Positions 2,547 to 63,077 of a stretch of 64,000 nucleotides of DNA are shown here, piece by piece. The translations under genes were made by a program, and so were the position numbers. The notes beneath the pieces are model-generated. The model was given only the letters and a program-made list of their open reading frames with translations, was not told where the DNA came from and did no database searches. How positions within the stretch are numbered: the first letter of the stretch is position 1; each line of letters begins with the position of its first letter. The stretch comes from Forficula auricularia (lineage: Eukaryota > Arthropoda > Insecta > Dermaptera > Forficulidae), in assembly GCA_024734495.1 (NCBI GenBank), contig JALMQS010000225.1, positions 14,294,096-14,358,095 of the forward strand. Direction: 5' to 3'.

Positions 2547-3835
2547 AGGGTATAAATATAGGTCCCAAAAATAATTTTAATTTAGAGATTTACAAAGGCT
2601 TTAAATATATATCAAAGATAAATAATTAAACTCAAGGATTTTAAAAGTTAGCTCGAAGAATGTGATTACTTTTTAATTAGAAAATTGATTGAATATTCTA
2701 TTTAGAGACATTGAACGTAGAGTATCAAATACAGCAAGTGAAGAAATCTAATCTAAAAAATCAATTTGTAGATTTTTTATTTTTAAAATATATTTTCAAA
2801 TGTAGTGTATCAATTAGGGTCTATTAATCGAAACCTGGGACAAAATACATAGATATAAATTCTCGAAAAGTCTAATTTATTGTTGTTTTATTCAACGTAG
2901 AGGTGAACAACAAATTATGAATATAGATGTCAGGTGTCGGGTTCAATCTGAATACAAAGTAAGCAACAAAAGCGCCTATTTTGGGATGTGAAGGTCAACT
3001 ACCCCTTTTTCTGAGCTGACAAACCAAAGTGTTGGAATTTCAAAAAAGATAGAAATGAATCAAGACCTCTTGGCTTGGCTGGTCATAATTTATCATCTCA
3101 TGACGCTTTTTCGGAAATATTCTCTTTTGTTTTCATCCTGGACAGGCAGAATGAAATACACAAACCAACACGGCAGAACTGAATTTATTAAATATTTAAT
3201 TGTAGAATATGTTGAATAAAAGCTACAACTAATAAGTAGACGCGTAGAAAATGAATTAATTAACGAATGAAAAGAACATATAAGACATACTTTTTGACTG
3301 TAAATAACAAGTAACGAATTTCATAAATATGTAGATGCAAAAAACAGGTTTAGCCAAGATATTTATCATTAAAATTTAAAACATTTTAACTAAATTAAAA
3401 AGAAAGAGTGAAAACTCGGTACGCTTTTCACAAATTTTACAGATTTGACATTTTTTTCAGCGAACGGTTGGATCTAGAAAGTAAATACTTGGAACAGAGG
3501 TGCAGTTTATTTAGAATAATATTTTTTTCTCAGACCAAGACAATTTCTAGAGTTTGTTCGAAATAGAACTTCAATTTTAGAAAGATAGGGAGAGGAATAA
3601 TATAGACAGCGAAGTACATAGTTATAATTCAAAAAGGCTAAGTAATTAAGTCGTTAACTAAAAACGACAATTATGTAGTAATAATTTTTAATTACTATTA
3701 ACTGAACAACTTATTACCAAGGTATTAATATTTCTCAGAAGCATCGACTTTCTTTAAGATTATTAGTCTTCCAGGGGGTCTTAATATTAAATTCAGACAT
3801 TTTCTTATGCATAAGAAAAATTTGTTCATTGGCCT
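2547..3835. other. AT-rich sequence, no gene recognised
   Basis: Nothing coding is supported. The stretch 3416-3530 resembles the edge of the R1 dispersed repeat (CTCGGTACG-type motif) but is too diverged to delimit. Confidence 0.4.
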
Positions 3836-7413: not shown

Positions 7414-8306
7414 TTAAGAAATTTCCTCCCCATGAACCTTCTGCAGATCTAAATGATTTACAACATTTCAATCAAGTTTAAAATAGATTGAAATAGTGTA
7501 AAATAACTTATAATATCAGAGAGGGTTGTCAGTCATATAGACTTAGACGAGAGACTAGCACTCATTCTAATATAATAAATATATACTACTGACCTGTTAA
7601 TTGATAGAAAAAAGGTAAATCGTATCGCGAATTAATTCACTGCACATGAATAATTAATTTGGCCACCAGTACACTAGGACGCTTACCGCTTAACTAATTA
7701 GAGGCCGGGGCAGAGGCGCCCGGCTCCAACTTGTCCGGACTTGTATCAGAAGATGACGTCACAGCCCAATGCGCCTATTAGCGAATAATATAATACCTAT
7801 AGGAAAATATATTTAATTCCCTAACCCAGAGAGACATACTATGAGAGAGAAAGAGAGAGGGTGATAGTACATTCTCTCTCACTTGCACTCTCGCTCGCTA
7901 TGCTATTATTATTAATACATTATAATGTTAGAAAAAATTTCATCATAAATTAAGCCAAAAACTAGAATAAAAATTTTACAAAAAATTACTTATAAATCAT
8001 TAAGTAATTCGTTTTTTTATTATTTTTTTTTATAAATAATGATTAAATTGAAAGTTTTTTGCCGAGGGTAGCAGAATTTTTATAAATTGAAGGAGACAAT
8101 AAGAGTGTGTCTTCTGCTGGAATTATAAATTTTTAATTTATTTGTAACTAGACTATAGTTTCGAGAGCTTTGACCTCTTCATCACTCTATTAAAATTGAT
8201 TCACAGGAATTGATGTATGAAGAAGGCAAAGCTCTCAAATTTTACTTATGGAAAGTGGTGTAGGTTTTAGGTGAAACATGATGTTATTTAATAGAGATTA
8301 TTAGTC

Positions 8307-8434
8307 CATCATCAGGAGTTTACAAGTTAATACTAATCCATCATCAGGAGTTTACAAGTTAATACTAATCCATCATCAGGAGTTTACAAGTTAATACTAT
8401 AATATTAACTTGTAAACTCCTGATGATGGACTAA
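8307..8434. repeat. Three tandem units plus an inverted copy
   Basis: The unit TCCATCATCAGGAGTTTACA plus about 12 more bases is repeated three times at about 32-base spacing (8309-8398) and is then met by its complement (8402-8432). Read on the minus strand, each unit supplies stem I and the CTGATGATGGA box of the hammerhead-like motif, so these are truncated motif copies. Confidence 0.8.
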
Positions 8435-8456
8435 TGATCCGAAATATATTGAGTTT
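8414..8456 (+). other. Hammerhead-ribozyme-like motif
   Basis: In order: AAACTC, CTGATGA, an extra T, hairpin GGA..TCC, GAAA, TATATT, GAGTTT. AAACTC pairs perfectly with GAGTTT (stem I). The UH position is the last T before GAGTTT. The A+TATA+T segment between GAAA and that position is self-complementary, as in dimer-forming hammerheads. The order matches a type I hammerhead except for the extra base after CTGATGA. Confidence 0.55.
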
Positions 8457-8727
8457 GTATAAACCTCTTTGAGTTTTATTTCATTCACTGTGAAACTACA
8501 CACCCTTTACTCTATTAAATAAAGCTCTCAAAACTATAGTCTCGTTATAAATAAATTAAACATTTATAATTTCAGCAGAAGACAGACTGTTTTATTGTCT
8601 CATTCAATAATAATGATTTTTTCATAATAAATTGAGATTTAAGTTTTAGAAAAATGCATTGGGAGCCATTAGAAGAGCATAAAATTCTTGATTTTAGAAA
8701 ATATTAAAAAAAAAATCATAATTATAA

Positions 8728-9420
8728 TAAGCCGGTCAAGTGCGAGTCAGACTCGCAAAGCTAGGATTTCGTATCTTATATCTTTCAAAATATTTAAGAT
8801 AATGTGCTTTAGGTTTTCCGCAGTATTCATATTAGAGATTGAGCATAATTTCTCAGTCTTTATCAGGAAATTGATTCGCTTGGTCTATATTTCCATTCCC
8901 GTGAGTCTAAGTACCCGACTTAGGTCGACCTTCACCTATTAAGTTTCATAATTAAATTAATATTTTGATAATATAATGTATTAATAAACAAAACTTGATA
9001 GGGTCGACATCCAATTTCCATGCGCATAGCGATTTTTAATAATTTTATTTTATTATATAAATGTAGTTATCGAGTTTCCGGATAAATATATTACCAATCG
9101 AGAGTAAAATATGTATATAAAATGCCAAGTTGGGTAGTCATCTTTTTCCCCCGCAGTCCAGGTAGACAGGGTATCTACAGGTAACTTCGAATTAGTATTT
9201 TGTAGTTATAGAGTTTCCTTTATAGTTATATATGAAAATGTAGATAATTAAAAAAATAATAATAAATAAATCTAATAAAATAGCTATGCAATGAAATTGG
9301 ATGTCGACCCTATCAAGTTTTGTTTATTAATACATTATATTATCAAAATATTAATTTCATTAGGAAACTCGATAAGTGAAAGTCGGTAAGTCGGAATTTT
9401 GTACTATCTCGCTTTATCAA
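8728..9420. mobile_element. Non-autonomous element, GCCGGTCAAGTGCGAGTC type
   Basis: It starts with GCCGGTCAAGTGCGAGTCAG, a phrase I recognise from many arthropod non-coding transposons. Two long inverted blocks lie inside: one at about 8945-9025 containing CTTGATAGGGTCGACATCC, and its complement at about 9298-9365. Exact ends and class are uncertain. The open frame at 8688-8942 falls inside the repeat and is not a gene. Confidence 0.55.
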
Positions 9421-10497: not shown

Positions 10498-10980
10498 CAT
10501 TACTCGGTACGCCCAGTATTGAATTTACTCCAAATTTTTCGTGCTGAAAAATGTCTGGAACGTGGAGAAAAAACTTTTTTATTTTATTCTGTCTGTCTAA
10601 ATATGTGTCTGGATTTCGACACCCACGATAGCTTAAGAACGAAAAGTCGTAGAAAGTAGTTCCTATGCTAAAATGTTTGTATTTTCAATCCGGAGAACTA
10701 ATTAAAATTTGGGCTTTTTAGCTTCAGATCTTTCGGTTAAAAAATGGAAATTATAAAAAAATATCATTTTTTGAGATTTTACTCTATTTCTATAGTATAA
10801 AATAATAAACAATCGAACAGGTGTGTCTTTAAGCGCTGGCCAATGCAAATTATAACAGTTATAATTCTGTACTTTCCTGAAGATGAGCTTACAGCTCGAA
10901 ATATATATATTGAAAAAATTTACATCTTTTATTTTTTTAATTTTAATGTGAAACAAGTGACCTAGAAATCTTAACTCATA
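10498..10980 (+). repeat. R1 copy 2 joined to a hammerhead-like element
   Basis: Positions 10,548-10,790 match R1 (AAAATGTCTGGAACG, GTGTCTGGATTTCGACAC, AAAATGTTTGTATTTTC). The following 10,855-10,975 matches, inverted, the segment at 61,265-61,385, including GTGAAACAAGTGACCTAG. That second element carries the hammerhead-like motif at 10,873-10,915. Confidence 0.6.
10873..10915 (+). other. Hammerhead-ribozyme-like motif
   Basis: Order: TTTC, CTGAAGA, an extra T, hairpin GAGCT-TAC-AGCTC, GAAA, an alternating AT tract, TT, GAAA. TTTC pairs with the final GAAA (stem I, 4 bp). The five-base-pair hairpin directly before GAAA is perfect. The AT tract is self-complementary, so it could pair between two RNA copies as stem III. 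Confidence 0.55.
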
Positions 10981-12384
10981 GTAAATGAATATTGCATATG
11001 ATATTTATTTACTTTTATCTTTATAATTTGTATCATAATTTCTTTCATGAAAAATGAAGTACCATACATTCCAGTGTAACTAAAATTCTATTGAATATAT
11101 TTGTCAATAACCTTAATTAAAATGAAGTTGAAGGTAAGCTCTTCGAAACTGTAGTTTCAAATAAATTAAACAGAAGACACAACATTCTTATAAATTTCAA
11201 AGTATATTACTGTTTTGGCTGAGCTCAAATTTCTATTAGGGTCTCTTTTAGAACAAAACCGCAAATTTATTAATACTAACTATAATTAATTTTGTCTTCA
11301 TATTAAGTATAAAATCGTTAATTAAAGGCTGAAATATGATGTACTTTTAGTCTTTCTAACGACACCTCAAAGAAAGATAAAATTTGATGATATATTTAAA
11401 ATTATAGTACAAATATAAGACTAGAATAATAATTGTTATAATTAACCTTTCAAAGTATTAGAGAGAGATTAATTGATCAGCAAACATTTTAATTTATAAT
11501 TATTGAGACATAAATTTTAATGATAAAAAAAATTTACGATATGTATGTATATTAGTCAATAAAGGGGGATCATGAAATATGGAAGTTATTTACCTAGTAT
11601 AGTTTTCAGTGATAAGAAATATTGTTTGATATTATAAAAAGAAATAGTATCTAATAAGTATCAACTTGTAATGTGGAAAGTCTTTCTTGGTTTGGTCAGT
11701 TTAATGAAATTATACAACGATTTAACTTGTATTTTGAAGGTCTGTTGCAGACTTCTGTGGTTTCATTCAAGTTCAACAACTTTGGAACAATCTGTACTCA
11801 ATTAGACAACTATTATTCTTGTTGAGATAATTCAATTCATTATTTTCATTCATTTGAAGTTCACTCAAAGTTTCTAAATATTGGAGTTTATTTCTGTTCG
11901 ATTCAATATATGTACTTTAGTATAAGTAAAACTAAGAATGGAATCTTATTTCTGCACAATCTAATCTTGTAATAATGTCGGAAGGTCAAATAAACATTCT
12001 ATAATACAAAATACACTATATTGTGTGAATATTTAATACGAGAATTCATATTTTATAAATGTTCAAAATTGGTGCAACTTAAGGCGCGATACTTTCAAAC
12101 AATAAACATTTGATAAAAACTTCAAAATATTCCCGATTTACTAATAAACTAATAGGGATAATTAATATCTTATAATAGTGCAAAATAAATGTGTTTACAA
12201 AAAAAATCAAGCAATGTTCGTTATCGAAAGATAACATTTTCAATTGAAAGTATTCAAGGATAAAAAAAATAACAGAAGACACAGTAGAAAATGAACAACA
12301 GATAAATTTATTTTGTCTGATTTCGTTCTGACAATACACTAATCTACACTTATAGCTGAAGTATACAAGTTCTAATAACACTAT
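10981..12384. other. AT-rich sequence, no gene recognised
   Basis: No exon or bounded element could be supported. The long open frame on the minus strand at 12,079-12,450 runs into the palindrome below and has no recognisable protein content. Confidence 0.4.
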
Positions 12385-13345
12385 TATACAAAAGTTTTTC
12401 CCCGTAAACCTAACAATGGATCCAGTAGAGTTATATAGGCTGGTTATCATGCAATTTCCCGATTTTTTAGAACACGTCAGAGATTTGAGATATTATCGGT
12501 CAAAATGACGAAAAAAAAGCCATTTTGACCTATTTTCTAGTCCCTTTAGATATTAAACAGCAATATTTGAAATCACCGCCTCCGTGGTCTAATGGTCAGA
12601 GTAACTGACTGGCAACCCGGAGGTCCCGGGTTCGATTCCCGGCTATGCTCAGAAATTTTTCTGTAAGTATAGGGTCTGGAACGGGGTTCACTCAGCCTCG
12701 TGAGGATAAATGAGTAGCTGCTTGATTGAGAAGTAGCGAATCTCGGTTAAGAAAACTGAAACGAAGGTTGTAGATGTGCGTTGAGCTAACCACTTGACCC
12801 CTCGGTACTGTTTCCAATTAGGACAGCAACCAATTCAGTAGGCCAAGACCCATGAAGGGTTGTCGAGCCAGAGATTTATTTTTATTTATTTATAATATTT
12901 GAAATCAAAATATTTTGTTGACGTAATAGAAAACAGCTTCCTCTTTGATTTTCAAATTACCACTTGTTTTTAGCTCAATTAGAACTCGAGTTATAACTAA
13001 AAAACTAAAACCACGTGAATATAAAGGATAAAAAACATAGGTCTTAGTTTTTTAGTTAGGTATAACTCGTGTTCTAATTGAGCCAAAAACAAGCGGTAAT
13101 TTGAAAATCAAAGAGAAAGCTGATTTCTATTAAGTCAACAAAACATTTTGATTTCAAATATTTCTGTTTAATATTTAATGGGACTTAGAAATAGGTCAAA
13201 ATGGCCTTTTTCGTCATTTTGACCGATAATATCTCAAAACTCTGAAGTGTTGTAAAAAATCGGGAAATTGCATGATAATCAGCGTATAAAACTCTACTGG
13301 ATCCATTGTTAGGTTTACGGGGACAAATTTTTGTTTAATTTTTGT
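12385..13345. mobile_element. Long palindromic (foldback) element
   Basis: The arms are complementary over roughly 300 bases. TTTTTCCCCGTAAACCTAAC at about 12,395 is answered by GTTAGGTTTACGGGGA at about 13,308. ATCGGTCAAAATGACGAAAA (12,497) and AATTAGAACTCGAGTTATAA (12,978) are answered near 13,200-13,230 and 13,060. The left arm is split by a SINE. No coding content. Confidence 0.8.
12576..12893 (+). mobile_element. tRNA-derived SINE nested in the palindrome
   Basis: The first 75 bases are tRNA-like with an A box (TGGTCTAATGG) and a B box (GGTTCGATTCC), the internal RNA polymerase III promoter. The body of about 240 bases ends in ATTTATTTTTATTTATTTAT. The 14-base target duplication AATATTTGAAATCA is perfect (12,562-12,575 and 12,894-12,907) and interrupts the palindrome arm, so the SINE arrived later. 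It is a different family from the SINEs at 17,025, 21,036 and 27,279. Confidence 0.9.
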
Positions 13346-14545: not shown

Positions 14546-15650
14546 TTTTGAATAAAGAATCCTTGTATTACTGAATGCCTGCTAAAAAAATGAAACTCTA
14601 CCAAAAATTATATCGAATAAGAAAAAAAAATAGTATTAACTGCACTTTGCAAATTTCATACAAATTTTAACTTTTGAATTGAAATACCCAAACTAGATCT
14701 GGCTAAATTAAAGATTCCTGTATATCTGTATATTGGCTGAAAAAAGGAAACCAATAATATTAGAATTACTAGATATAAATATTATAAGTAAAAATAATTA
14801 TTTTAGCCGAGAATTAGACTTTAACTTGCACGACATACACAAAATAGGATTGGCTAAAGTTTTCATTGAAGTTTTGCTACAAATCGATGATTCTTGTGTA
14901 ATTAACCCTTCTAAAAACAGAAAGTCTTTTAATAATAATAATATTGGAAAATACGTAAATATAAATCATTTCTAAAATTATTATTTATTTCTAAATTCCG
15001 ATCTTGTAAATATTTTAATTTTATCGTATATTTTCAATATATTTCTATGTTTTTTTGGTTGCTTTCTTAAAGCATCTATTTTTACAAATTTATTTAAATT
15101 TCAAATGATTAATGGAGAATTTCATTTAAAATTTTGGACTTGAAATAAACGTATTCAGATTGTTTTTTATAAAAGATATGTATTTATTCGTGAAGAACAT
15201 ATGCCTATTAACTGAGCGAAAAGGAGATAATATGAATTTGTGAGTTATTACTTTTTTAAATACGAGCTTTATCAAATAATAACTAACTTGAAAACGTGCG
15301 GATGTTCATTGTGAACTGTCTCGGAGTTTGTGATAAATTGAAATCTGGCAAAATTATCAGATAAATGCTATATATAAAATCAATGCAGAATTTCATTATA
15401 AGATTACAGATCTGAAGGGAAATGTTGATATCTTAAGTTTTAAGTTTTTTAAAATGTCAATAAAGCTTACTTATATTAATCGCCAATCCTAACAAGATAC
15501 CGCGTTAATTAATAAATGGCAAATTTTTTCAGGTTGGGCCACTGATTAGGAAATTAAAAAATCAATTAAAATTTTATCTTAATGCTAAGCCTAAATTTAT
15601 AATTTAACAAGATTGAAGTAATTTTTGGAGACGGACTGATAAGTGAAATT
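14546..15650. other. AT-rich sequence, no gene recognised
   Basis: An 80-codon open frame at 14,733-14,975 has Asn/Ile-rich composition expected by chance at this base composition. No family similarity or splice context is seen. Confidence 0.4.
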
Positions 15651-15700
15651 GATGAGGCAGTCCAAAAAAAGAAGATAATTTATACTATCTTTCCATTCAT

Positions 15701-15742
15701 AAACCGACGTTTCGGAGGCTATTCACTCCTTCTTCAGGGTCT
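15701..15742 (-). other. Hammerhead-ribozyme-like motif, left arm
   Basis: Read on the minus strand: AGACC, CTGAAGA, extra A, GGAG..CTCC hairpin, GAAA, CGTC, GGTTT. AGACC pairs with GGTTT (five pairs, one G-U). GAAAC-GTC gives a GUC cleavage triplet, and ACGT is self-complementary for a stem III between two copies. It differs from the right-arm copy mainly in hairpin loop bases. Confidence 0.5.
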
Positions 15743-15991
15743 GTAATTGGGATCTGGCCATGATTACAATCAAGACCATCACAAAAAAATTTTAAATACA
15801 TTTAATACACTGAAAGAGGAGACAGAGGGGAATGTCGCATTGAATTTCCTTCACTGACTTTCCAAAGTGACTAGAATATTTTTGATTAAAAAAAAAAAAA
15901 ATTGTATAAAAATTATGTATTAATTGTATTTGAAAAAATTTTGTGATGATCTCGATTGTAATGATGGCCAAGTCCCATTTTAATTGATTAC

Positions 15992-16033
15992 AGACCCTGA
16001 AGAAGGAGGGAATATCCTCCGAAACGTCGGTTT
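15992..16033 (+). other. Hammerhead-ribozyme-like motif, right arm
   Basis: Order: AGACC, CTGAAGA, extra A, perfect GGAGG..CCTCC hairpin, GAAA, CGTC, GGTTT. Stem I (AGACC with GGTTT), the two conserved boxes, stem II and a GUC site are all present. It is one of the most complete copies in the window. The single departure from the consensus is the extra A between CTGAAGA and stem II. Confidence 0.6.
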
Positions 16034-16084
16034 ATGAATAAAAAGATAGTATAAATTATCTTCTTTTTTTTGGACTGCCTCATC

Positions 16085-17007
16085 AATATCCACTCAATTA
16101 TAATTTAAAATTTGATTTAAATTTGAGTAAGTTTTTGATAGTAAAAAATCAATTTACTAGAAGATGAAAAGCTGTGAAAAATACCCTAAAACATTAAGTA
16201 ACGTTCTAATTTTATCTTCAATGGTCCATTCAGAAATAATTTCTCAGATTAGGTATACATCTGACCAGAAAACTCACAAGTAAGAATTTCACCCAAAAAT
16301 AAAAAAATGTAAAACGAAGTTTGGATATCTCATATATTTTTATATTTTTCGGGTTATACGAGTATATGACTTAAGATTAGGAAAATTCATTCTTTCTCTC
16401 CAAAGCCATGTAGAATTTCCTCCACATCTAAAAAAAAGTCCAGCAGCTTCCAATATTTAACCGAGTTTTTATAGAAATTGGTGTAAGAAAATTGACGCTT
16501 CTGCTAATAAAATGTAGAATTTTAAATGAATTACGAAAATATTATAAAAATGCCATTTCGATATCTAGAATACTTTTTGAATTATTCAACTTTTGAAACA
16601 CTCGAACGGATTGATTTATAGATTTTAGATAACCAAGTTTGATAGGTATTTTTTTAACTAACAAACAACTAACAATTTCCCTATGCTAGAGTCACATGAA
16701 TAGAAGAGTAAAATTTATTTAAATTATTTTACTAATGTGTAGGCATTGAAAAAATGTATTTAGGTAATTTCATTTGGTGAAAACACCTCTTGAATCCTTT
16801 TTACTAAATTGTTATTTTACTATATTACAGTATTTAAATTAGCTATCGTAATCTGTTATTTGAGTAGAAATAAACATTTTGATAAATTTAAGAATGTGAA
16901 CATGACTCCTGACGTAATCGAGTAATTAGTTAAGCAAAAAAGTATTAATTTTATTTGAAATTTGGAACATAATAGTCAATATTATTATAAATATTGTTAT
17001 CTATATA
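16085..17007. other. AT-rich sequence, no gene recognised
   Basis: No exon, RNA gene or bounded repeat could be supported. Confidence 0.4.
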
Positions 17008-21349: not shown

Positions 21350-21600
21350 ACATCAAATCGGGTGTTTGAACCCATGAGAAACAACATATAGAATATTTCT
21401 AATTAAAAAAGCCTAATGATGAAGGTCAAACCTTCAAAACTATAGTCTTTAACAAATAAATTATGTTAATGAATTAGCTAAGGGGCCAGTTATGGGAAAA
21501 AGTTGAAATAAAAGTTATCTCTTATTTAATCCTTTATTATAAGTAGACGTAATCGATATTTTACACGTTTCGAGCGCTATACCGTTGCTCTTCATCAGTG
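21350..21600. repeat. Fragments of two foldback families
   Basis: Positions 21,352-21,475 match the arm of the 22,425-22,700 foldback (AATCGGGT..GAACCCATGAGAAA..GATGAAGGTCAAACCTTC). Positions 21,560-21,600 on the minus strand form a hammerhead-like unit: CTGATGA, extra A, GAGC..GCTC hairpin, GAAACGTG. The last base of the cleavage triplet is G, which would block cleavage. Confidence 0.55.
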
Positions 21601-26094: not shown

Positions 26095-26330
26095 AGAATA
26101 TTCATAGCTTCAATACCATTGATGATCAACCACCTTCAATGTCAGTGAAGGTTGATTAACTTCATCTAAAAGGTATAACAATAGTAACGAAGGTAACGCA
26201 ATAAAAATCAAAGTAACTGCAGGAATTACTGTCCTAATAACTTCAATCGTTTGACCTTCCAATAAGAAACGATTAAAATAAAGGGTTCCCAACAAATATT
26301 TAATTAATAAGATTTCCTCATATAACGATT
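26093..26330 (-). pseudogene. cox2: Nuclear insertion of mitochondrial cox2 (NUMT)
   Basis: The minus-strand translation contains [31 protein letters not shown] and DHQWY, the conserved core of cytochrome c oxidase subunit II between the second membrane helix and the start of the Cu-A domain. After DHQWY the frame meets TGA (26,110-26,112) where COX2 has Trp. Reading TGA as Trp, as in arthropod mitochondria, gives WSYEYSDFG. Conserved Trp before TVIPA is Arg here. Roughly 80 of about 225 codons are present, with no start or end. It is therefore a dead nuclear copy. Confidence 0.9.
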
Positions 26331-27278
26331 CAATTTTCTTTCGGATTTCTGCGCAGATCACCAAGAATATCGAGTAATTTTATATTTTTAATCCAAGTTG
26401 AGTGGGAGATCTAGAGGTTAGGAGAGACAGAAAAATAGATTAGAGATTAGTGTGGGGTCTAGAGAGACGTGGCTTATTTAATATACCGGCAGCAAACAGG
26501 TTCATAGCTAGGCCTTTGCTATTTTTTTCACGATTCTGAAGGTTAGTTTAGTATAGATAATATGGTTATTTTTTTCTGAATTTCATGGAAACCTAGTGAA
26601 AAAACAACTAGGCATCTCTGGCAAATACACTGGGAGAGAGAGCTATATGACGAATTCTTAGAAAAAGATGATCCATAAATTTTTTAAAAACAAGGTGAAA
26701 TATATGTTTCAGAGACAAATATAGAAAACAGAATGTCTCTGTGCTGAATAATGATTCTAATTTCACGTTGAAATTCCCGGGCCTGGGGATCCGTAAAATT
26801 CCCAAAATTTTTGGAAATATATGTTCCCAAAACCATGCGCGCGTTCCGGCACTATGACACCACTGCTTACCAGTTTCTTAAACAGATAGAGAGAGCCAGT
26901 TTCAATCCAATGAGGACAAAGCAAATGTACTATATTTTGATAGTTCTTATTATGATGTTGATAAAGTCCATTTTATGATGAGTTGATGAAGTTCCCTATA
27001 AATATGATGTTTTAGGATGAATTTCAGTGTTGAAACTTTCATTATGCTAATGAAAAATTGTACTCAAGACAATTAACTGAGCGGAATTTTTAGATCTTTT
27101 TAAATAAGTGTACCTTTATTTTAATAAATACAATTTATTTCTTTTAATATAAAAAAATCCCATTTCTAAAAGTGAAGAACTCGTTCGTGATTGAATTAAA
27201 AGGGTTTAACAACACCCATCTTCTAAATATATTGATATAAATAATAATTTATTACTTTATTTATTTTTTTAACTTCAT
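26331..27278. other. Unrecognised sequence
   Basis: No gene is supported. Confidence 0.4.
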
Positions 27279-28540: not shown

Positions 28541-30210
28541 AATATTCACTCTCTCATTTTAAGTCTTTTGTTTTTTTGAATGCCCAAAGTAGTAGACATG
28601 GTGGGTGGATGAGCTTTTAATAAAAGAAATGAAATAGTACAAATATACATAGAATACCTATTCTGTAACTTAAATATTGCAAGAATCAAAAATATTCACT
28701 CTCTCATTTTAAGTATTTTGTTTTTTTGAATGCCCAAAGTAGTAGACATGGTGGGTGGATGAGCTTTTAATAAAAGAAATGAAATAGTACAAATATACAT
28801 AGAATACCTATTCTGTAACTTAAATATTGCAAGAATCAAAAATATTCACTCTCTCATTTTAAGTCTTTTGTTTTTTTGAATGCCCAAAGTAGTAGACATG
28901 GTGGGTGGATGAGCTTTTAATAAAAGAAATGAAATAGTACAAATATACATAGAATACCTATTCTGTAACTTAAATATTGCAAGAATCAAAAATATTCACT
29001 CTCTCATTTTAAGTATTTTGTTTTTTTGAATGCCCAAAGTAGTAGACATGGTGGGTGGATGAGCTTTTAATAAAAGAAATGAAATAGTACAAATATACAT
29101 AGAATACCTATTCTGTAACTTAAATATTGCAAGAATCAAAAATATTCACTCTCTCATTTTAAGTATTTTGTTTTTTTGAATGCCCAAAGTAGTAGACATG
29201 GTGGGTGGATGAGCTTTTAATAAAAGAAATGAAATAGTACAAATATACATAGAATACCTATTCTGTAACTTAAATATTGCAAGAATCAAAAATATTCACT
29301 CTCTCATTTTAAGTCTTTTGTTTTTTTGAATGCCCAAAGTAGTAGACATGGTGGGTGGATGAGCTTTTAATAAAAGAAATGAAATAGTACAAATATACAT
29401 AGAATACCTATTCTGTAACTTAAATATTGCAAGAATCAAAAATATTCACTCTCTCATTTTAAGTCTTTTGTTTTTTGAATGGGATTGCCCAAAGTAGTAG
29501 ACATGGTGGGTGGATGAGCTTTTAGTAAAAGAAATTAATAGTTTTTAAGGAATTTGGTGTTGGTACTTGGTGAAACATTTTTTATCAAATAATTTTAAAA
29601 GAAATTAAATATATTTATAATCCTCTCATTAATACATCAAAGAACAATCAACATATTAACGAGAATTGTTTTGATCGCGCTTTTAAACAAGATATATATC
29701 GCGAGACTACTGCTGGTTGAAGCAATTGGAGTCTGCTGAGTCTTAAGTCTGCAGCAGACTCCAATAGCTTCAACCAGAAGTAGTCTCGTGATATATATAT
29801 TGTTCAAAAAGCACGATCAAAACAATTCTCGTTAATATGTTTATTATTCTTTGATATATTAATGAGAAAATTATAAATATATTTAACTTCATTATTAGAA
29901 ATACATAAATTCGGATATTATTTTCACTTAATATTTGACAAAAATCACCTGCTTTCAATTCGCTATCGAATCAAATACAGGAAACTTATGAGAAATTAAA
30001 TAGTGCAAATATACATAGAATACCTATTCTGTAACTTAAATATTGCAAGAATCAAAAATTTTCACTCTCTCATTTTAAGCCTTTTGTTTTTTTGAATGGG
30101 ATTGCCCAAAGTAGTAGACATGGTGGGTGGGTGAGCTTTTAATAAAAGAAATTAAATAGTACAAATATACATAGAATACCTATTCTGTAACTTAAATATT
30201 GCAAGAATCT
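28541..30210 (+). repeat. 150-bp tandem satellite, about eight units
   Basis: The unit begins AATATTCACTCTCTCATTTT and includes AAAGTAGTAGACATGGTGGG and ACATAGAATACCTATTCTGT. Units begin at 28,541, 28,691, 28,841, 28,991, 29,141, 29,291 and 29,441, exactly 150 bases apart, and are almost identical. A C/A variant (AAGTCTTTTG or AAGTATTTTG) distinguishes them. The seventh unit is split by an insertion at about 29,545-29,990 and an eighth follows at about 30,052. The last two carry an extra GGGATT. No open frame is conserved. Confidence 0.95.
29545..29990. mobile_element. Foldback element inside the satellite
   Basis: Two arms of about 150 bases meet near 29,745. CATATTAACGAGAATTGTTT, GAGACTACTGCTGGTTGAAG and GGAGTCTGCTG are answered in inverse order. 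It splits a satellite unit, and the phrase AGAAATTAA(A)TAG occurs on both sides (about 29,532-29,543 and 29,991-30,003), consistent with a target duplication of about 12 bases. No coding content. Confidence 0.8.
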
Positions 30211-31480: not shown

Positions 31481-31727
31481 TTAATCAAAAATTCTCCTGT
31501 TTATTTATTTATTTTTTTTTTAAAGAAAAAAATGAATTTATGTAGACAATTCAAAAATCTTTCATTTTGACAAGAATTCCATGAACTTAATTTAGTTTTA
31601 ACCTATTTTTCAAGGGTGGCGAAAGGTAAACTTTTATTTTTCAGGGAATTTTCCCGACGTTTCATAATAGGAATATCGCTACCAATTTTCACTAATTATT
31701 TGAATTATTTTTATAATTTCCTTTTCA

Positions 31728-31915
31728 TATTAAATTGAAAGTTTTTTTGCCGAGAGTAGCAGAATTTTTATATATTGAAGGAGACAATAAAAGAGTGTTC
31801 TTCTGCTGGAATTATAAATTTTATTTATTTATAACGAAACTATAGTCTCGTTATAAATATATAAAATGTATAATTCCAGCAGAAGACACACTCTTTTATT
31901 GTCTCCTTCAATTTC
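31728..31915. mobile_element. Short foldback element
   Basis: The arms are those of the 8042 element (TTTTTTGCCGAGAGTAGCAG, GGAGACAATAAAAGAGTG, TCTTCTGCTGGAATTATAA). The two arms join directly at GAAACTATAGTCTC, that is within the hammerhead-like motif, so the CTGATGA box and stem II are deleted. Confidence 0.75.
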
Positions 31916-32879
31916 CCTTTTCGTTGATTTTAGCAAACTAACATAAAATTTAATAAATTTTAGATAACCTTCAAATGTCTCAACATAATAAATGGGCTTT
32001 TCGGAATTCGTATAGGTATAAAGTTACGAGATATGAATTATGCGTTTGTTTTTCAGTGTTTATATTTTTTTACAATTTACCCACAGTGTAGGTGAACTGT
32101 ATATAAGACAAATGGTACAAGACGGCCTCTTTTGTTTTAATTAATTACTATTTTGAAGATAACCGTGATTACATAAATGTATTATTTCGAGAGCTTCATC
32201 CCCTTTTCTTTTCTCGACTCTTGCATACAAAATATAATCCAATTCCTTTTGTACCTTTCCATTTCTATCATTAATTAAATTTAATTTTTGTTTGCCCGAA
32301 ATCTGTTCCTTTTAGCTAATTAGCGAGGTATTTATTTATTTCTTTGCGTTGTCTTTGTAGAGTGATTTAAATTGTGCCCTAAAAAGGGAATCAAAAGGCA
32401 AACAACAACAACAACAACAACGCATCCAGACACAGCACCAGCACCTTCTTCTTTCCAATAACAGAAATTGTACCTCCTTGCTTACTTTCAGCTTTATTTC
32501 TTTTTATTTTTGTGTCTTTTCAATAAAAAAGTTTTCATTTTGACTATAATAAGATTTGTTTTTCTAAACAAATGAAAATAAAATGATAATTTGTTAAGAA
32601 AAAGACACTTAGCCTCTACTATGAGAGTTGATTAATAAAGGGAAATCAATGAGGTTGTCCTATGCTTGATGCAAATAAACATGGAAGATGTACATTGAAT
32701 TCTATAAATAATTTTCCATGTGTTTTCTTTACACTCTTTATCTTTGTTGTAATAAATACTCAACGATGGTTTTTTAGTCTCAATCCAATCGTCGATAATG
32801 AATTTTTATGAATATTTTTTTTCATTGTATTATTTGTTAGAGACTATAATTTCGATGGTCTTGCCTTCATTAAAAGTTT
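31916..32879. other. Unrecognised sequence
   Basis: (CAA)n at about 32,402-32,420 and the inverted dispersed phrase GAAATCAATGAGGTTGTCC at about 32,643. No gene is supported. Confidence 0.4.
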
Positions 32880-33150
32880 TTTATTGAAGGAGACAATAAA
32901 AGAGTGTGTCTTCTGCTGGAATTATAAATTTTATTTATTTATAACGAGACTATAGTTTCGAGGGCTTTGCCCTCTTCATCAGTCTATTACAATGGATTCA
33001 CAGGAATTAATTTATGAATGAATGAATGAATGATGAAACTATAGTCTCGTTATAAATAAATAAAATGTATAATTTCAGCAGAAGATACACTCTTTTATTG
33101 TCTCCTTCAATATATAAAAATTCTGCTACTCTCGGCAAAATCTTTCAATT
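32880..33150. mobile_element. Foldback element with hammerhead-like motif
   Basis: The arms match the 8042 and 31,728 elements. The left arm carries a complete motif on the minus strand. The centre contains a (GAAT)n/(TGAA)n run (about 33,016-33,035). The right arm keeps only GAAACTATAGTC. Confidence 0.75.
32940..32990 (-). other. Hammerhead-ribozyme-like motif
   Basis: On the minus strand: AATAGA, CTGATGA, extra A, perfect six-pair hairpin GAGGGC-AAA-GCCCTC, GAAA, CTATAGTC, TCGTTAT. GAAAC-TATA-GTC gives a two-pair stem III with a four-base loop, or an eight-base self-complementary stem in a dimer, and a GUC triplet. Stem I is weaker: GA/TC next to the core, then an internal loop, then GTAA/TTAT. 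Confidence 0.55.
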
Positions 33151-35205
33151 TAACAGTTTTTTAATTAAAAAATTTCACCTGTTATTTTAAATGGGTTCAT
33201 TTATCCGATTGGTTAAATATAAATTTGTTTTATTGTTATAGCAAGCTAACCTCATAACATGGTCAATCATTTGTCATGTCTGTAAAATAAATTATTTTAT
33301 ACATATACATAGGTATTTATATTCGATCAATATGAATATAGATACGTTATGTTTTTTGCATCAAGCATAGGACAACATCATTGATTTCTATTTATGAATC
33401 AACAACTCTGCTAGTCTAGGCAAGAAAAAATATTTTCAATAAGACTTGATTAATAATTAAAATTATTTTTTTGTTTAAAATATTTTTGTAAGGAATTTAA
33501 TTATTCTCTTTCCTAAAATTGAAATTTGTTCAAACAAGTTGAATACATTTTAGCAGGATCTTGTGTTTTCATGAGTTAAATGTTTGTATAGTCTTTAAGG
33601 TTTACTCACAGCCCTCGAATAGTAAGTAGCTAGAAGTTATTTTATCACCCTAGTGTGGTAAGTACCTATTAGTATAGATTGGCATAAGAACATAGCGATA
33701 CTTAACCCTCTTCTATCAGACTGTAGATAATAATTTATGAATAAATAACCATTTTTAAATTAAAAATTTTGATATTAGTGGGAAACATCGAGTATATCTC
33801 TTTTAATCACTTAGATACTTAATTACTAGTTATTGTTATTATTAAGGCTTATTATATTTAATACATATTTCCTTCCAAAGCCAAATTTGTGTTATTAAAT
33901 ATAATAATTTGTTTGATTTGATTTTCATGAAGCATCAAAGAAGTGCAGATTCTAATTATTATCCTCTACCATAAAAGTCCTCAACCACCCTTCACATTTA
34001 AAAAATTAAAAATCCCAGAAAATCATTTATTAATAAAAATTTTCTAGGGAAATTTTACAAAAACTACTAGAGCATATTTCAATGTCAAGTTTTTGTCGAA
34101 TACTCACTCACTCAATCCAGGACAAAGTCAATTCATTAGAAGAAGGGATGTTGATATATTAAAAATATTTTTAAAGAATATTGCTAAAGAATAATAAATA
34201 AGAATACAAATGGCAGACTCATTAAATTGTTCTTGCTTTCAGTCTTGGAAATTATTAACTTGAACTTTGCTACAACAATAAATAATTGCTCGTAACTCGA
34301 AAAGAGGTTAAGCACCCACCAGTGATGCATTAAAGTCTAATTAAAGACGAAAAATACAACAGCAAGTGGGAATTTGACAGGGAGGGAGTTCTCTCCCTCG
34401 ATCAGAAAAATGACATAAACACTTGACCAAAAAGACGTCTTTTAATGAGGAAAATAATATTTATTTAACTGATTATTCTGGAAAAAAAAATACATAACTA
34501 AAATTGTTTATAAACGAGTTAAAATTTTGTTGTTTTTCTGGGTTTTTAGAGTGAATAAAGAAATTTAAAGGTACATGGTTAATAAGTTAAGGATTGGATG
34601 AAAGGCAGTCCAGAAATAAATAAAAAAAAAGATAATTTTTAATAAATAAGTATTTATTCGAAAGTTTTCCCTTTACAATTTTTTTTTTGAAACCAATGGT
34701 TAATTTTCAAAAAATTTTATTCTATAAAAATATTCGTTAAAATGACAGTGATTTAGTGATAAAAAAGCTACTTCATAAAAAAAAAATTTATCAGCGAAAG
34801 CTAATAATTTTCATAATATTATAATTAAAAAAAAAAAAAAAAAAAAATGAAATTATAAAGGGTCGAATTTGTCGAAAGTGTGTAGCGTCCTCGAATTCTT
34901 CGGGGTTTGGAATTTAAGTTCTGCGGTAAAAAAAAAAAATAAATAAATAAAAATAAAAAATTGAATAGTCTATTCTCTGCTTCAAAACATAAACGTACAC
35001 AAATAAATACTACATAAATCTGCTATGGTGAGTGTGACAAATTGTTATAGCATTGAAGGCCAAATAATAAAATAGAAAAGAAATTGAAAGAAAGAGAAGA
35101 AATTAAAAAAATTTAGAAATTGTTGAAATCAGGAAGTGATTTTTCGGAGCAAATATGGGCATCAATATCGTATTATTTAGTTGAAATAAAGAAATATAGG
35201 AGTTA
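33151..35205. other. AT-rich sequence with small repeat fragments
   Basis: 33,170-33,290 is an arm fragment of the GAACCCATG foldback family and 33,355-33,440 the dispersed GACAACATCATTGATTTC repeat. A lone AAAGGCAGTCC terminus is at about 34,600 and an A run at about 34,829-34,847. No gene is supported. Confidence 0.4.
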
Positions 35206-35789
35206 GGTTGCTCCTTATTTTGGATACTTTCGAATATTTTTACACGGACAGGGGCTCATATGGTTCTAAATAAATTAAAAAAAAATCCCCCAAGTTTCAA
35301 ATCTCTATCTCAATTTTAACCTAGCGATTAAGTTTCCCATCTAAAAAACATGTGATTTTTGGCATTGAACGATCAATTTTTCATTCCGGCCAAAGTAATG
35401 GTTCAAAAAATTTGAAACTCTGTAGACTTTATCCTTATAATAGTAGCTATCCCTCAGAATTTTTACAGACTTTTAGCTATTATAATTTTGGAGTCTATAA
35501 CTTACTAATACTAAGATATAGCAGTATTTTATCTAGATGTAACTCTAAAATTGTGATAGCTAAGAATCTGTAAAAATTCTGAAGAATAGCTACTATTATA
35601 AGGATAAAGTCTAGAGAGTTTCAAATTTTTTAAACCATTACTTTGGTCGGAATAAAAAAATTGATCGTTCAATCTCAAAAATCCCATGTTATTTGGATGG
35701 GAAACTTAATCGCTGTGTAGTACTAGGTTAAAATTGAGATAGAGACTTGAAACTTGGGGGATTTTATTATATCCAAAATAGGAGCACCC
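35206..35789. mobile_element. Palindromic MITE with TA borders
   Basis: TA-GGTTGCTCCTTATTTTGGATA on the left is answered by TATCCAAAATAGGAGCACC-TA on the right. Most of the 584 bases form two long complementary arms (for example AATTTTTACAGA and GACTTTATCCTTATAATAGT, both answered). TA borders fit Tc1/mariner-type mobilisation. The open frame inside is an arm and not a gene. Confidence 0.8.
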
Positions 35790-38529: not shown

Positions 38530-40110
38530 TCATAAGCATTTTTGTGTTTTATAAGTTTTTGATAGTATTATATAAACAAATTGAGGGGATAAATATAAAC
38601 AGAAAACAAAACAAAAAATCGATCTAAAATCAAAGTCTAAAAACATAGAAAACAAATATTTATAATCCAATCTTTTAGCAGTAAAATGGTAAAATTTAGT
38701 TTTGAAGCCATTTAGACTCAAGGGGTCAGAGGCAACGTCACGGGGGGGTTTTGGGGGTCAGAACCCCCCCCAACGGCAACGACAAACCATTTCTTATGAA
38801 AAACTAGCCGTAATTAAATATATTTAATATGTTTAATCAAGAATTATGTTCTTTTTTAATTTACCTTTTTAGTCCAGTTAAATTGTTCTCTAAAGGGCCC
38901 CTCGTGGGAAAGTTTTGGAGGTAGTTTTGATTTCTTGATACTATGTTTTTTATCTGCTGAATCCGAATCTGAGGTTTGCCAACAAAATTTCGTGACGAAA
39001 CATTGTCAAAAATGCAAAGAAAGATAAAAAATCTCATTTTTTGGCGGTTTTTGCTTATAAATCGAAAACCATCAGCCTTTCGTAAATAACCTTCCTTTTC
39101 AAAATCAAAGGTCATAAAATTTCTTACAAATTTCATTTTTTAGGTTTTTCTCCGACCAACAGATTTATAGATATCTAGAATTTTCCATGGCAGGATAAGA
39201 TCCGAATCCTCAAAAGTGTCATGGAAAATACTGGATATCTATAAATCTAAGAGTTTTATCAAAAAGTGGTTCAAGTAAACTTTCAAGTCAACAAAATTTC
39301 CTAGAGAATGAGACAGAAATCAAGTTTCTAGGATGAGTGGTTTTCATTTTATGAAGGAAAGACTGCAATTTTTTGCAAAAAATTGCAGTTTTTCAAAAAT
39401 TCAACCTCATTGCGGCACGGGTTACAATTATCCAATTAATATGAAACTATTTAAATTGTATCAAATTTAATCTAGTGGTCTTTCATGGTCAAATGGCGAA
39501 GTGCAAAACCAGCCAATTTTCAACTAGCGCTTGAGCCCGAAGGGTTAGTTGAAGAAAAAACCTAAATGAAGAAATTTGTAGGAAATGTTATTTACTTTTA
39601 TTTTGAATAGGAAGGTTATTTACGAAAAGTTGATAGTTTTCGAGTTATAAGCAAAAAACAGCCAAATAATGAGATTTTTATTACCTTTTTTTTTGCATTT
39701 TTGACAATGATCCGTCACGAAATTTTGTTAGCAAACGTCAGATTAGGATTCAGCACACCCAGAAGCAAAAACATAAAGGGTCGAAGAAATCACAACTACC
39801 CCAAAACTTTCGGGGAAAAAAACACAATTTAACTGGACTATTTCTTTTAATAAAAAAAATCCCACTAAATATTTTGCTTTGATTGGCCCCTCAAGAAACT
39901 TTTCTGGCTACGACACTGGGTAAAAGGTAAATGAGATATTTTATGTTTTACAGGTATTTAATAGTATATAAACAAATTGAAGTGATAAATATAAACAGAA
40001 AAGAATACAAAACATGTATTGAAAAAAAAATAGTAAACAAATATTTATAGTCCAGGTTATTGACGGTATAATAATAATTGAAAGTGTTAGTTTTGAAGGC
40101 ATTTACAGGC
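38530..40110. repeat. Nested direct and inverted repeats
   Basis: Outer direct repeat: about 38,560-38,715 and 39,945-40,105 share TATAAACAAATTGA..GATAAATATAAACAGAAAA and AAACAAATATTTATA. Between them, arms at about 38,865-39,115 and 39,600-39,840 are inverted copies (AAGGTTATTTACGAAA, CGTGACGAAA/TCACGAAATTTTG, TTAACTGGAC). A smaller inverted pair flanks the middle (AGATTTATAGATATC at 39,160; GATATCTATAAATCT at 39,235). One reading is an inverted-arm element inserted into a duplicated segment. Confidence 0.65.
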
Positions 40111-56300: not shown

Positions 56301-59300
56301 ATAGAAAGAAAGATAAAAAGTTCTTTCTGGTGTCATAATGTTTGTATTTTCAATGTAGATAACTGATTAGATTTAAGCCTTTTGCTTTAAAACTTCCGGT
56401 TCAATAATGTAGAAAATGTCATTTTTTTCTCAATAAAAATATAAATTTCTAATAGTTTATTACATTTAAGTTTAATAATACTATCGTGACTCTAGCTGGT
56501 GATCGTACCGAGTTTTGAAAAAGATCTAACTTTTTCCTCCATTTTTTGAATTGCGTAAGCATTAAAATGTAATGTTAATTTTGTGCAATGAAGAGTTTAT
56601 ATTTAAAATGATTATTTTTTCATTAACTAGAACAGAGCTTATGTAACTTTTGAAGGTCTAATAATTTCTTACGGTTCGCTACTAAGCGGGGGAGTGAGAG
56701 ACTAAAAACAAATCGATCGGATTGTCGCGTAATATTTAAAAACAAAAAACAAAAATAAAACTCTCTATAGCGAGAACATGAGATACACCTGAAGAGCGAT
56801 ACATTTGGGAAGCCTGTCTGCTAGACTTACTGAATAATAACAAATAGGAAGTTAAAAATGATGTAATGATAGATTCCTTTGAAATCAAAAAAACATGTTT
56901 TGTTTTGATAGTAGTTTGTAGGGGCAGAGAGTTCGAACCACCCCATCTGGCCACGTGCCTGATCCTCTACCTATTTATATGTACTATCTTGTTTAAGAAT
57001 GTTTAGAGGCTGTCTCTTCCTTAATAACTTCGCTCACCTTTGATACTCTTAGGTCCAGTTGTATGTCGATTGGTAAACTCTTTTTAAACGTTGACAAAGG
57101 GTAAAAACCTTAAAATTCACCTTGTGCCCGATGGGATCAAGGTGAATTTTAAGTTTTTACCCTTTGTCAACGTTTAAAAAGAGTTTACCAATCGACATAC
57201 AACTGGCCTTTAGAGAGGTAGATGTACAAGCCTAGAATATCTGAAATCTAGTTTAAAGGCAAATAATAATATATTTTAAATAAGTAGATTATAATGAAAG
57301 GCAGTCCATAAATTATTTTATTTTATTTTTATTCAATTTTCGACGTTTCGGAGACTTTTTTCTCTCCTTCTTCAGGGTATTGAATAGTTATTGATGGGTG
57401 AGTATAACTCGGTTCCCATTTGTCTCTCCTTTCAGTGATAGCAATAATATTACAATATTTTCCAACATTAGACCATAAGTATAATATAATACAATATATA
57501 CAAAGAAAACCAAGTACCCTTATGGTATAATGTTGGAAAATATTGTAATATTGTTGCTATCACTGAAAGGAGAGAATAGGAACCTAGTTATACTCATCCA
57601 TCAATAACTATTCAATACCCTGAAGAAGGAGAGAAAAAAGTCTCTGAAACTTCGGAAATTGAATAAAAATAAAATAAAATTATTTATGGGCTGCCTTTCA
57701 TTATAACCTACTTATTTCGCTTACCAGTCCGTCTTTCTAAGAAAATAAATAAAATTAAATATATATTAAAATTTTATTTAATATTCCTTTATATTTTGTT
57801 TTTATATTAATACACTAGCTGCGGGCACTCTTTTTAAATTTGTCAAATAAATTGAAAAATATCTCATAAAAAAAACATTTAGAATTGGGTCTTAAATTAT
57901 TATAAACAAGGTCCCATTGCACAGTTCAATTTCACTTTAAAATTTGGAATTTTATTGTGAACTTTTGGAAATCTCTCCCAATATTCCAGTGGATAATATT
58001 CACTCACCATTTTAAATAAGTAATGTCCTGTGAAATGTCAGCTAGTTTCTCGTTTTCTAAGATTGGATAGTTTTATTAATTTTAAATATTTGGAGCCTCT
58101 CTCATTTTCCTTTATCCTATGAAATACATATTATGATCCCATTGTTTAATAAAAGCCTTCTCACTAATAAATGTCAGATTTTTTGGTTTACTGAACTTAG
58201 AGATTTAATTAAATTAATTTTTTCAAAAAAGCCTTCTCTAATCTTTCAAGCCCGAGAAGTCCCATCTAAATCAAAACGCCATCTGGGCTCTTACTGATAC
58301 TTGATTTTCAAATTTTAACATGAAATTTACAATTGTTGAGATATAGCTAGTTCAAAGGACATAAAACAGGATGTTGTACTTTAGAAATTTCACATTTTCG
58401 ACTTTTTTCAAAAGTTATTCGTCATTGTCTATCTATAAGTAGGCATGCATAATTTCAACTTTCTAGCTTGTACAGTTCAAAAGTATTTTAATTTCACAAC
58501 AAACATATTTTCCCAGCAAACAAATGTCTTTCTTTATATCAAATCTAAAGTTTACTTTCGCCTTCTCCACTCCAAAAACATTTCTAGATACTTGACTGGA
58601 ATATATACATATATAGTTATTTTCGGCACTAACGATTTTTTTTAATTGGTATACTTATCAAGTGTCATGAGTTATTAGTCGAGTATAAATTTTAATCCGA
58701 TTGAAATAAAGGAAGGGGGTGTAAATTAGGAGTGTCGCGATGATTTCAAATAAGCGAGAATGTGAAAGTCGTCTGGTGTCGACATCAGTTGATTTATTCT
58801 TCTTATTCAAATATGACCACCAAAGTTTTAGCTTATAAAATAATCCAAGAAGAGGGCAGCACTTTATGGGAACGCCCTGTAGTTAGATAACCCTTATTAA
58901 CAAGCGACACGAAGATTGCATTCTCCAGGCTTAAATTAAAGCAATTTTTAATATTTTCTTGAAGCCCTATCTAGCTCCAAAAATTATTGTACATATCTAA
59001 CCACCATCAACTTTATTTTAATTAAAATTAAACTTCATTTATTCAATTTAAAAAAATGAAGGGCTTTTTTCATAAAATTATGTCCTTTATGAGCCAACCT
59101 AACCAAGATATCAAGGGCGTCCGCAGAAAAATCTCCAGAGAGGGGGGGAGATTTATGACAAATAATTATATTATTAAATTTTTACTTAAATATATATTTT
59201 TTTACTAGTAGAATACAGTACCTGCAGAAGTGCTTAAATGCAAAAACACAATAGGTACATTAAACATGGTTTAGTGAATGAGAGCCGGAAGTCAGGGCTG

Positions 59301-62454: not shown

Positions 62455-62722
62455 CTTTACATCCTCCAAATTTTCGTTTTTATTCAGATACCTAACGCAT
62501 TTAACAAAAATCCTACATGGTCAAGACTTTTTGTATTTGTTGTTACTTAACTAGCTATTGATATAACTTAAACAATAATTAGTTTTATTCTACTGCAAAT
62601 ACGGGGGACCATTTATTTAGATGACAGTTCGAGGTTTAAAAAAATTGAATAATCTCTTAAATGAAATTTGTTAATATTTAAAGAACTTTTCTCTTTGGAG
62701 AGAGACGAACTGGTAGAATTTT

Positions 62723-63010
62723 TAGTTGAAAAGTAATGGAAGGCAGTCTAGGGGTAGTGAAGAAAAAATTATTTCATTTTCAAATAAGATGTATTTGTAT
62801 TTATTGGACTGTCATTCTTTTTTCTCCCTTTCTTGTTTGTTTCCTTGATTGACCCTTTGAAACCCTGAAGAAGGGAAGAATCCTCCGAAACGTTGATTTT
62901 AAGGAAAGAGGGGGAAAAATGACAGTCCAATAAATACATCTTATTTGAAAATGTAATAATTTTTTCTTCACTACCCTTAGGCTGCCTTCTATTATAATAC
63001 TTTTCAACTA
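62723..63010. mobile_element. GGCAGTCC-family MITE with hammerhead-like motif
   Basis: TAGTTGAAAAGTA..GGAAGGCAGTC is answered by GGCTGCCTTC..TACTTTTCAACTA. The plus-strand motif at 62,854-62,904 has CCTT..ACC, CTGAAGA, extra A, an imperfect hairpin (GGGA..TCC), GAAA, CGTT, GA..AAGG. Outer stem I is CCTT/AAGG. GUU is an acceptable cleavage triplet. Confidence 0.75.
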
Positions 63011-63077
63011 GAAATTTGTTGTTTTTTAGTGAGATTTGGTTATTTATTATTTTTATTTTTTGACCAAGACATCGTCC

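Follow-up and report, generated by a model that had tools for sequence, protein, structure and literature searches.

Minimal type I hammerhead ribozymes have been described in Penelope-like elements (PLEs), where they lie in the end repeats, as well as at positions dispersed in non-coding DNA, with a helix III that is lacking or minimal (Cervera & de la Pena 2014 and Lunse, Weinberg & Breaker 2017, as cited in PMC7761336, PMC6155905 and PMC6466107). According to reviews, such PLE hammerheads may cleave as dimers (PMC7761336, PMC6466107). PAc, a Poseidon PLE of Anolis, is reported to carry a hammerhead with stems I and II and a downstream stem-loop containing two reverse transcriptase (RT) start sites that define a tail (PMC11167929). 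It cleaves and extends both target strands, its hammerhead is active only with the protein, and mutating the hammerhead leaves insertion in vitro unaffected (PMC11167929). The Penelope elements of Adineta vaga are described as having head-to-head inverted end repeats, a 31-bp tail on one of them only, target duplications and solo end repeats, and the authors favored self-priming as the source of the inverted repeats (PMC3846280). Heliconiine butterflies are reported to harbor abundant short nonautonomous Penelope elements without a gene of their own (PMC6685494), and coding-free short Penelope elements are therefore a kind already known.

The elements considered here come from a 64-kb stretch of the genome of the earwig Forficula auricularia (the window, meaning the whole stretch of DNA that was analyzed). 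They share with the minimal PLE hammerheads, as these are described in the citing papers, the location, the dispersal and the reduced helix III, but may differ from them in having an extra base between A9 and stem II, as every exact core of the window does. Their likeness to PAc lies in the core with stems I and II and in the tail-defining downstream stem-loop, whereas PAc, as reported, is autonomous with demonstrated protein-assisted cleavage and the earwig copies are mostly coding-free with cleavage that is predicted. The Adineta elements are described in few copies and with duplications of 8-10 bp, whereas those of the earwig are longer (10-14 bp in the window, 12-19 bp in the best genome copies), and the Adineta passages (PMC3846280) make no mention of hammerheads. 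Nor do the passages on the heliconiine elements (PMC6685494) mention either a ribozyme or a head-to-head structure, unlike what is seen in the earwig.

A literature search of partial coverage yielded no published description of head-to-head, coding-free hammerhead PLEs, and a text search for the printed motif returned only papers that, judged by their titles and abstracts, are unrelated. De la Pena and Flores reportedly described a viroid hammerhead whose consensus core contains an extra nucleotide, and the hammerhead of chrysanthemum chlorotic mottle viroid is said to have an extra A between A9 and helix II and to be active. The earwig cores likewise have one extra core nucleotide, but the precedent comes from a viroid of plants and is an isolated instance, not a general feature. 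PLE hammerheads of the minimal, dimeric sort have already been published; to them the present case contributes its scale, an extra base that is fixed and a connection with head-to-head insertion.

Hammerhead-like cores in the window

The 64-kb window was scanned for exact CTGANGA followed by a hairpin of 4 bp or longer and then GAAA, and seven cores were found; 300 dinucleotide shuffles gave 0.28 on average and never more than 2. In all seven, a single inserted base, either A or T, lies between A9 and stem II, an arrangement referred to here as +1. The initial annotation had listed seven hammerhead-like places, and inspection of the sequence confirmed that the described parts are present at every one. 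Five of the seven exact-scan cores were already on that list; the new ones are 57620(+) and 21598(-), the latter being a place previously counted, as 21,560, among the decayed copies. The exact scan misses the listed places 8414 and 62854, where stem II is only 3 bp long or contains mismatches. With a covariance model trained on nine window copies, 11 more places were detected at E<0.1 outside the training set, one of which (54776) is unconvincing by eye. The ten examples of decayed copies that had been proposed divide as follows: one is a training copy and eight match the covariance model at E<1, and that at 18,000 reaches only E=3.7.

Element B has two cores, both +1 A and both found by the exact scan: the left one, from C3 to H17, at 15706..15737(-) and the right one at 15997..16028(+), with the stem I pairing AGACC/GGTTT. 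Element A also has two +1 A cores recovered by the exact scan, at 57342..57375(-) and at 57620..57653(+), the second having been missed earlier. The core of element C, detected by the covariance model at 62865..62894(+), is +1 A with a worn stem II. That of element D1 (32948..32982(-), exact scan) is +1 A with the stem III CTATAG, and that of element E (8420..8450(+)), recognized from the sequence and its stem I pairing, is +1 T with a 9-bp stem I. Family F is represented by a +1 T core with the stem III TATATATA at 10877..10911(+), found by the exact scan, and by a worn relative at 61335-61380(-), identified with BLAST and the covariance model. The exact-scan core of family G (21564..21598(-)) is +1 A and has G at H17; other copies in the genome have CGTT. 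Several window cores are worn, and stem I is weak in places, with 2 contiguous bp in 32,982(-) and 1 in 21,598(-).

Foldback elements, tails and target duplications

The first interpretation needs a correction here: the palindromes in which these cores lie are head-to-head insertions and lie outside the ribozyme fold. The core-bearing arms read outward, and the repeats are coding-free. Arm alignment delimits element B as a head-to-head foldback at 15608..16097, with cores on both arms, a left tail of 30 nt and an 11-bp target duplication, TTATAATTTAA, at 15597-15607 and 16098-16108. Element A, at 57281..57757, is of the same form, with cores on both arms, a right tail of 43 nt and a 13-bp duplication with one mismatch (57268-57280, 57758-57770). 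Element C (62673..63010) is a head-to-head foldback with one core, a left tail of 45 nt and the 10-bp duplication GAAATTTGTT (62663-62672, 63011-63020). The initial annotation regarded the families as unrelated, which is wrong in part: families A, B and C, at 57.3, 15.7 and 62.9 kb respectively, are interrelated, with BLAST identities of 75-83% over 39-68 nt and a common tail motif.

Family D contributes further head-to-head foldbacks, also delimited by arm alignment. Element D1, a PLE end repeat at 32884..33149, has a right tail of 39 nt and a 14-bp target duplication with one mismatch (32870-32883, 33150-33163). Element D2, at 8045..8608, has a left tail of 39 nt and the 10-bp duplication AATAATGATT (8035-8044, 8609-8618), and holds the inserted element E, itself a foldback (8240..8520) bounded by an exact 12-bp duplication, AAAGCTCTCAAA (8228-8239, 8521-8532). 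Element E also contains tandem pieces, namely three more partial copies of the 5' half of the core at 8296-8396(-). In element D4 (31727..31909, the left end being approximate), the arms abut without a spacer at the stem III palindrome ACTATAGT (31839-31846); its target duplication is imperfect, and its tail measures about 43-49 nt by hand. Element D5 (32627-33430), which encloses D1, perhaps has tail-like sequence on both sides, and a search for a target duplication around element D3 found none.

A good target duplication, of 10-14 bp, accompanies six of the eight window elements examined. A duplication score of at least 10 was reached by 6/8 elements compared with 5.3% of 300 random placements, a comparison from which D3 was left out and in which the search points had been picked from the arm ends or, for E, after the repeat had been spotted by eye. 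All six elements that can be assessed for it (A, B, C, D1, D2 and D4) have a one-sided tail. The longer side passes through a hairpin, and the opposite side ends within the loop of that hairpin, which has the form GGRCTGCC..CAGTCCGTC in A, B and C and AGCAGAA..TTCTGCT in D. The folding energy of the 3' hairpin is unremarkable against mononucleotide shuffles (z from 0.03 to -1.83). The possibility of a nested MITE at 57423-57575 was discarded, since that interval is spanned by the palindrome of element A. Long foldbacks that have no clear core occur at 12383-13339, 35276-35771, 39024-39755, 29598-29893 and 8926-9385.

Comparison of the motif with hammerheads

The core C3UGANGA9 and G12AAA, with stems I and II, is that of a hammerhead, worn in several copies. 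Two features depart from the canonical type I. Stem II does not adjoin A9, one base being extra in 7/7 exact window cores and in the PLE genes described below, and stem III does not form within one molecule: ACGT, ACTATAGT, ATATAT and ATATATATAT are palindromes without a loop, such that pairing would need two RNAs. With such a loopless stem III, a lone copy probably cannot cut unaided. The Rfam hammerhead models, when run on the repeats, matched none of them, which speaks against the hammerhead reading; the same library detected a canonical hammerhead in viral contig L082. The Rfam matches that were obtained were mostly to miRNA models on near-perfect hairpins, and were taken as chance products of the palindromes. 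Given the lack of an Rfam match, the non-canonical spacing, the loopless stem III, self-cleavage that is only predicted and the worn copies, we call the motif hammerhead-like rather than canonical. It resembles the minimal PLE hammerheads and is predicted to self-cleave after H17; none of the window arms begins exactly at this predicted cut site.

Covariation within the window had been proposed and is upheld for stem I, if modestly. In a permutation test with seven families, cognate halves outperformed permuted ones, with fractions of 0.014 (by energy) and 0.0008 (by contiguous pairs) of 5040 permutations doing equally well, and certain non-cognate halves pair as well as the cognate ones. Stem II covariation is clearer genome-wide than in the window: 13 distinct stem IIs pair at all five positions, compared with 68% (maximum 86%) for shuffled halves, the 13 having been drawn from 60 one-extra-base cores picked for at least 4 bp of pairing, a choice that favors pairing.

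Transcripts of whole foldbacks are predicted to form a long hairpin that buries the motif (-286 kcal/mol for A and -240 kcal/mol for B). Because such a transcript would fold on itself, cleavage, if any, is likely to take place on the RNA of coding or tandem copies before insertion. Cofolding of two core RNAs did not favor the hammerhead dimer in particular and was excluded from the evidence.

Copies across the genome

The core of A, B and C has 18,440 exact matches in the 1.06-Gb genome, against none for the reversed-pattern control. General +1 core patterns, for which stem II pairing was not required, matched 36,686 times where the extra base is A and 10,020 times where it is T (controls 0), a genome total of at least 46,706 exact +1 cores, or about one per 23 kb. 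The pattern with canonical spacing gave 918 matches, against 3 for its control. Among the first 100 of these listed, the best stem II pairing leaves one extra base (G) in 60, none in 8 and two in 2, with 4 tied and 26 having a stem II of less than 4 bp. Since 60 of these 100 nominally canonical matches pair best with one extra base, the extra base is the rule.

The layout seen in the window recurs in the genome. Thirty loci were taken in the order of listing, and 24 of them, representing 20 distinct elements, possess a strong inverted arm. Sixteen of these elements (20 loci) bear a tail on one side and none bears it on both, while in four it is absent by a strict motif. Fifteen of the 20 elements (19/24 loci) have a duplication score of at least 12, compared with 4.5% for mismatched flanks, and the target duplications of the best copies measure 12-19 bp. 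Among the 200 matches listed, core neighbors within 700 bp are arranged (-,+), facing outward, in 35 cases, (+,-), facing inward, in 2, (+,+) in 3 and (-,-) in 9, eight of the last nine coming from one tandem array. Some copies are young, with arms 99% identical in L099/L100 and 100% identical in L120. The inner ends of the genome elements are ragged, and in 5/20 distinct elements the shorter arm starts 6-21 nt from C3, in the core or stem-loop II, as if reverse transcriptase had stopped there.

Three loci are of more complex structure. An array of +1 T cores, L182 together with G000:C4:3474873-3476686, has a period of mostly 226 nt and nine copies among the matches listed, giving it a satellite- or retrozyme-like look. 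A single element at L121 (G000:C4:1021800-1023900) contains a tandem run of five C-type cores at intervals of about 111-125 nt. At L130 (G000:C4:3684600-3686000), a head-to-head pair of +1 T cores with the stem III TATATATA encloses a B-type head-to-head pair, two families being nested.

Relationship to Penelope-like elements

A search of the genome for GIY-YIG domains gave 150 scored matches among 3,423 candidates. Of 30 GIY-YIG loci, 23 have a +1 core whose stem II measures 5-6 bp. The core also occurs at all ten further loci chosen for long open frames, where it reads CTGATGA-T-GAAGAC-CAA-GTCTTC-GAAA-CTATAG-TC. Each of the four PLE open reading frames scanned from this genome (825-864 aa) contains RVT_1 and a C-terminal GIY-YIG domain. 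Intact PLE genes, of about 858 aa, have the +1 core in their end repeats. L171 consists of 2,909-bp units in tandem with 858-aa open frames, and L173 is a whole PLE, comprising a tail-less end repeat, an inverted tailed end repeat and the 10-bp duplication CTTCTCCGAA at both flanks.

The window is connected to these genes through family D. Over 153 nt, element D1 shares 95% identity with an L181 repeat whose start lies about 240 nt downstream from the remnant of a PLE, itself 48% identical to the L171 protein. Window pieces at 19.8, 21.4, 25.6, 32.6 and 33.4 kb are 77-90% identical to L171 or L173. Family D has the tandem and inverted end repeats, the one-sided tail and the target duplication of a PLE (L171, L173, D1, D2). 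The presence of the core in PLE end repeats, together with the identity between D1 and L181, establishes family D as a PLE. Families A, B and C have the inverted end repeats, one-sided tail and target duplication of the PLE layout. Searches with 110 PLE proteins found no PLE coding sequence associated with them in 50 loci or in the window, save a family-D-like piece in L133. Their assignment to PLEs is by architecture; they are likely to be PLE-derived as well. Of the Penelope or retrozyme origin suggested at the outset, the PLE part thus stands for family D, whose core lies in the end repeats of RT and GIY-YIG genes, and by architecture only for A, B and C. Within the window itself, no PLE gene was found by comparing 33 of the 60 stop-to-stop open reading frames of at least 75 aa with Pfam or by tblastn with PLE proteins.

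Mechanism and alternative explanations

The arms, their orientation, the one-sided tails, the target duplications, the copy number in the genome and the intact PLE genes with the same core can all be read directly from the DNA. In our judgment, the foldbacks are very probably short, coding-free, head-to-head retroelement insertions made of PLE ends, as established for D and likely for the others, with a +1 hammerhead-like motif predicted to cut only as a dimer or with a PLE protein. The PLE protein would cut AT-rich DNA on both strands, reverse transcription would begin on both strands, each time at either of two sites within the RNA's 3' stem-loop, and the resulting pair of DNA copies would be joined 5' end to 5' end. 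The outcome would be arms facing outward, a tail on one side, a target duplication and ragged inner ends. Priming on both strands, mobilization of coding-free copies in trans by PLE protein and cleavage of the RNA are steps that we infer.

A possible, though less probable, reading accepts the PLE origin but holds that the motif is no longer a working ribozyme, its sequence instead marking where the PLE protein binds or initiates, with any cleavage a relic. The PLE tested in vitro is reported to insert unaffected by ribozyme mutants, with no reads ending at the cut (PMC11167929), which is consistent with such a role, as are the deviation of the +1 arrangement from the canonical core and the fact that the predicted cut starts no window arm. 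The shorter arms of 5/20 elements point the same way: their starts, within the core or stem-loop II, mean that RNA containing that region was copied. Against this, the catalytic letters have been retained along with covarying stems in many families, and protein-assisted cleavage was demonstrated for the very PLE used in the in vitro work (PMC11167929).

A more elaborate version of the PLE reading, which we regard as rather improbable, gives the stem III palindrome a dual role. Through it, two RNAs of the element would pair to form a dimeric hammerhead, held together by a dimer of the PLE protein; both strands would be primed at once and the copies joined 5'-5', often at the palindrome, making the +1 core a distinct, Rfam-invisible subclass tied to head-to-head insertion. 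Element D4 looks as if its palindrome had joined two copies. It is alone in having an arm junction at the stem III palindrome in the 352 kb of this genome examined (overlaps counted twice), so that the idea rests on one case.

Retrozymes, that is, non-coding hammerhead elements arranged in tandem, mobilized as circular RNA and later rearranged, are a highly improbable source. They are known from animals (PMC7229834), and tandem arrays of the core do exist (the five copies of L121, and the nine listed copies mostly 226 nt apart), but among the matches listed 35 neighbors are head-to-head and 12 on the same strand, eight of these from one array, while stem III lacks a hairpin and the repeats match PLE ends. 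The least probable explanation is that of foldback DNA transposons or MITEs with a hammerhead-like word in their inverted repeats by chance, which would fit the long inverted repeats, short length, lack of an ORF and target duplications, but not the tail of 30-45 nt by which the two ends differ, the ragged inner ends, the covariation of stems I and II or the RT and GIY-YIG genes flanked by the same layout, the last of which already contradicts it for family D.

The foldbacks give dispersed minimal hammerheads a concrete identity: in the sample studied, retroelement insertions of the head-to-head form hold most of the cores, and this genome also contains intact PLEs related to them. As some copies are young, the function of hammerheads in PLEs becomes testable in one species. 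Because the Rfam models used miss the +1 group, surveys relying on them may undercount animal hammerheads.

Other features of the window and viral contigs

The only clear long host genes seen in the window are a GPI mannosyltransferase PIG-M gene at 48481-49680(+) and a gene for a RING-finger membrane protein at 53388-54236(-). The PIG-M protein is, after one contig at 92%, 52-54% identical to its next-best matches, which include cockroach and leafhopper proteins, as fits an insect host. An open frame at 26113-26379(-) matches the transmembrane domain of cytochrome oxidase subunit II (E 2.5e-8), possibly as nuclear mitochondrial DNA, and another at 45057-45299(+) matches CMC4, a small Cx9C mitochondrial protein (E 1.8e-8).

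Viral contigs were considered as an independent set and set aside: of their 86 motif matches, most are without stem II and chance-like, and a few are hammerhead-like. One of these, at L008:12754-12783(+), is +1 T with a 4-bp stem II and an apparent full hairpin stem III, GAAACGTCGAGAGACGTC, and has no hammerhead match at the Rfam gathering threshold. Hammerhead-like places without the extra base, with an apparent hairpin stem III, GAAACGTCGGGAGACGTC, occur in L075, L080, L082 and L086; those of L082 and L086 were scanned with Rfam and gave no hammerhead match at gathering. A second place in L082, at 3593-3642, matches Hammerhead_1.
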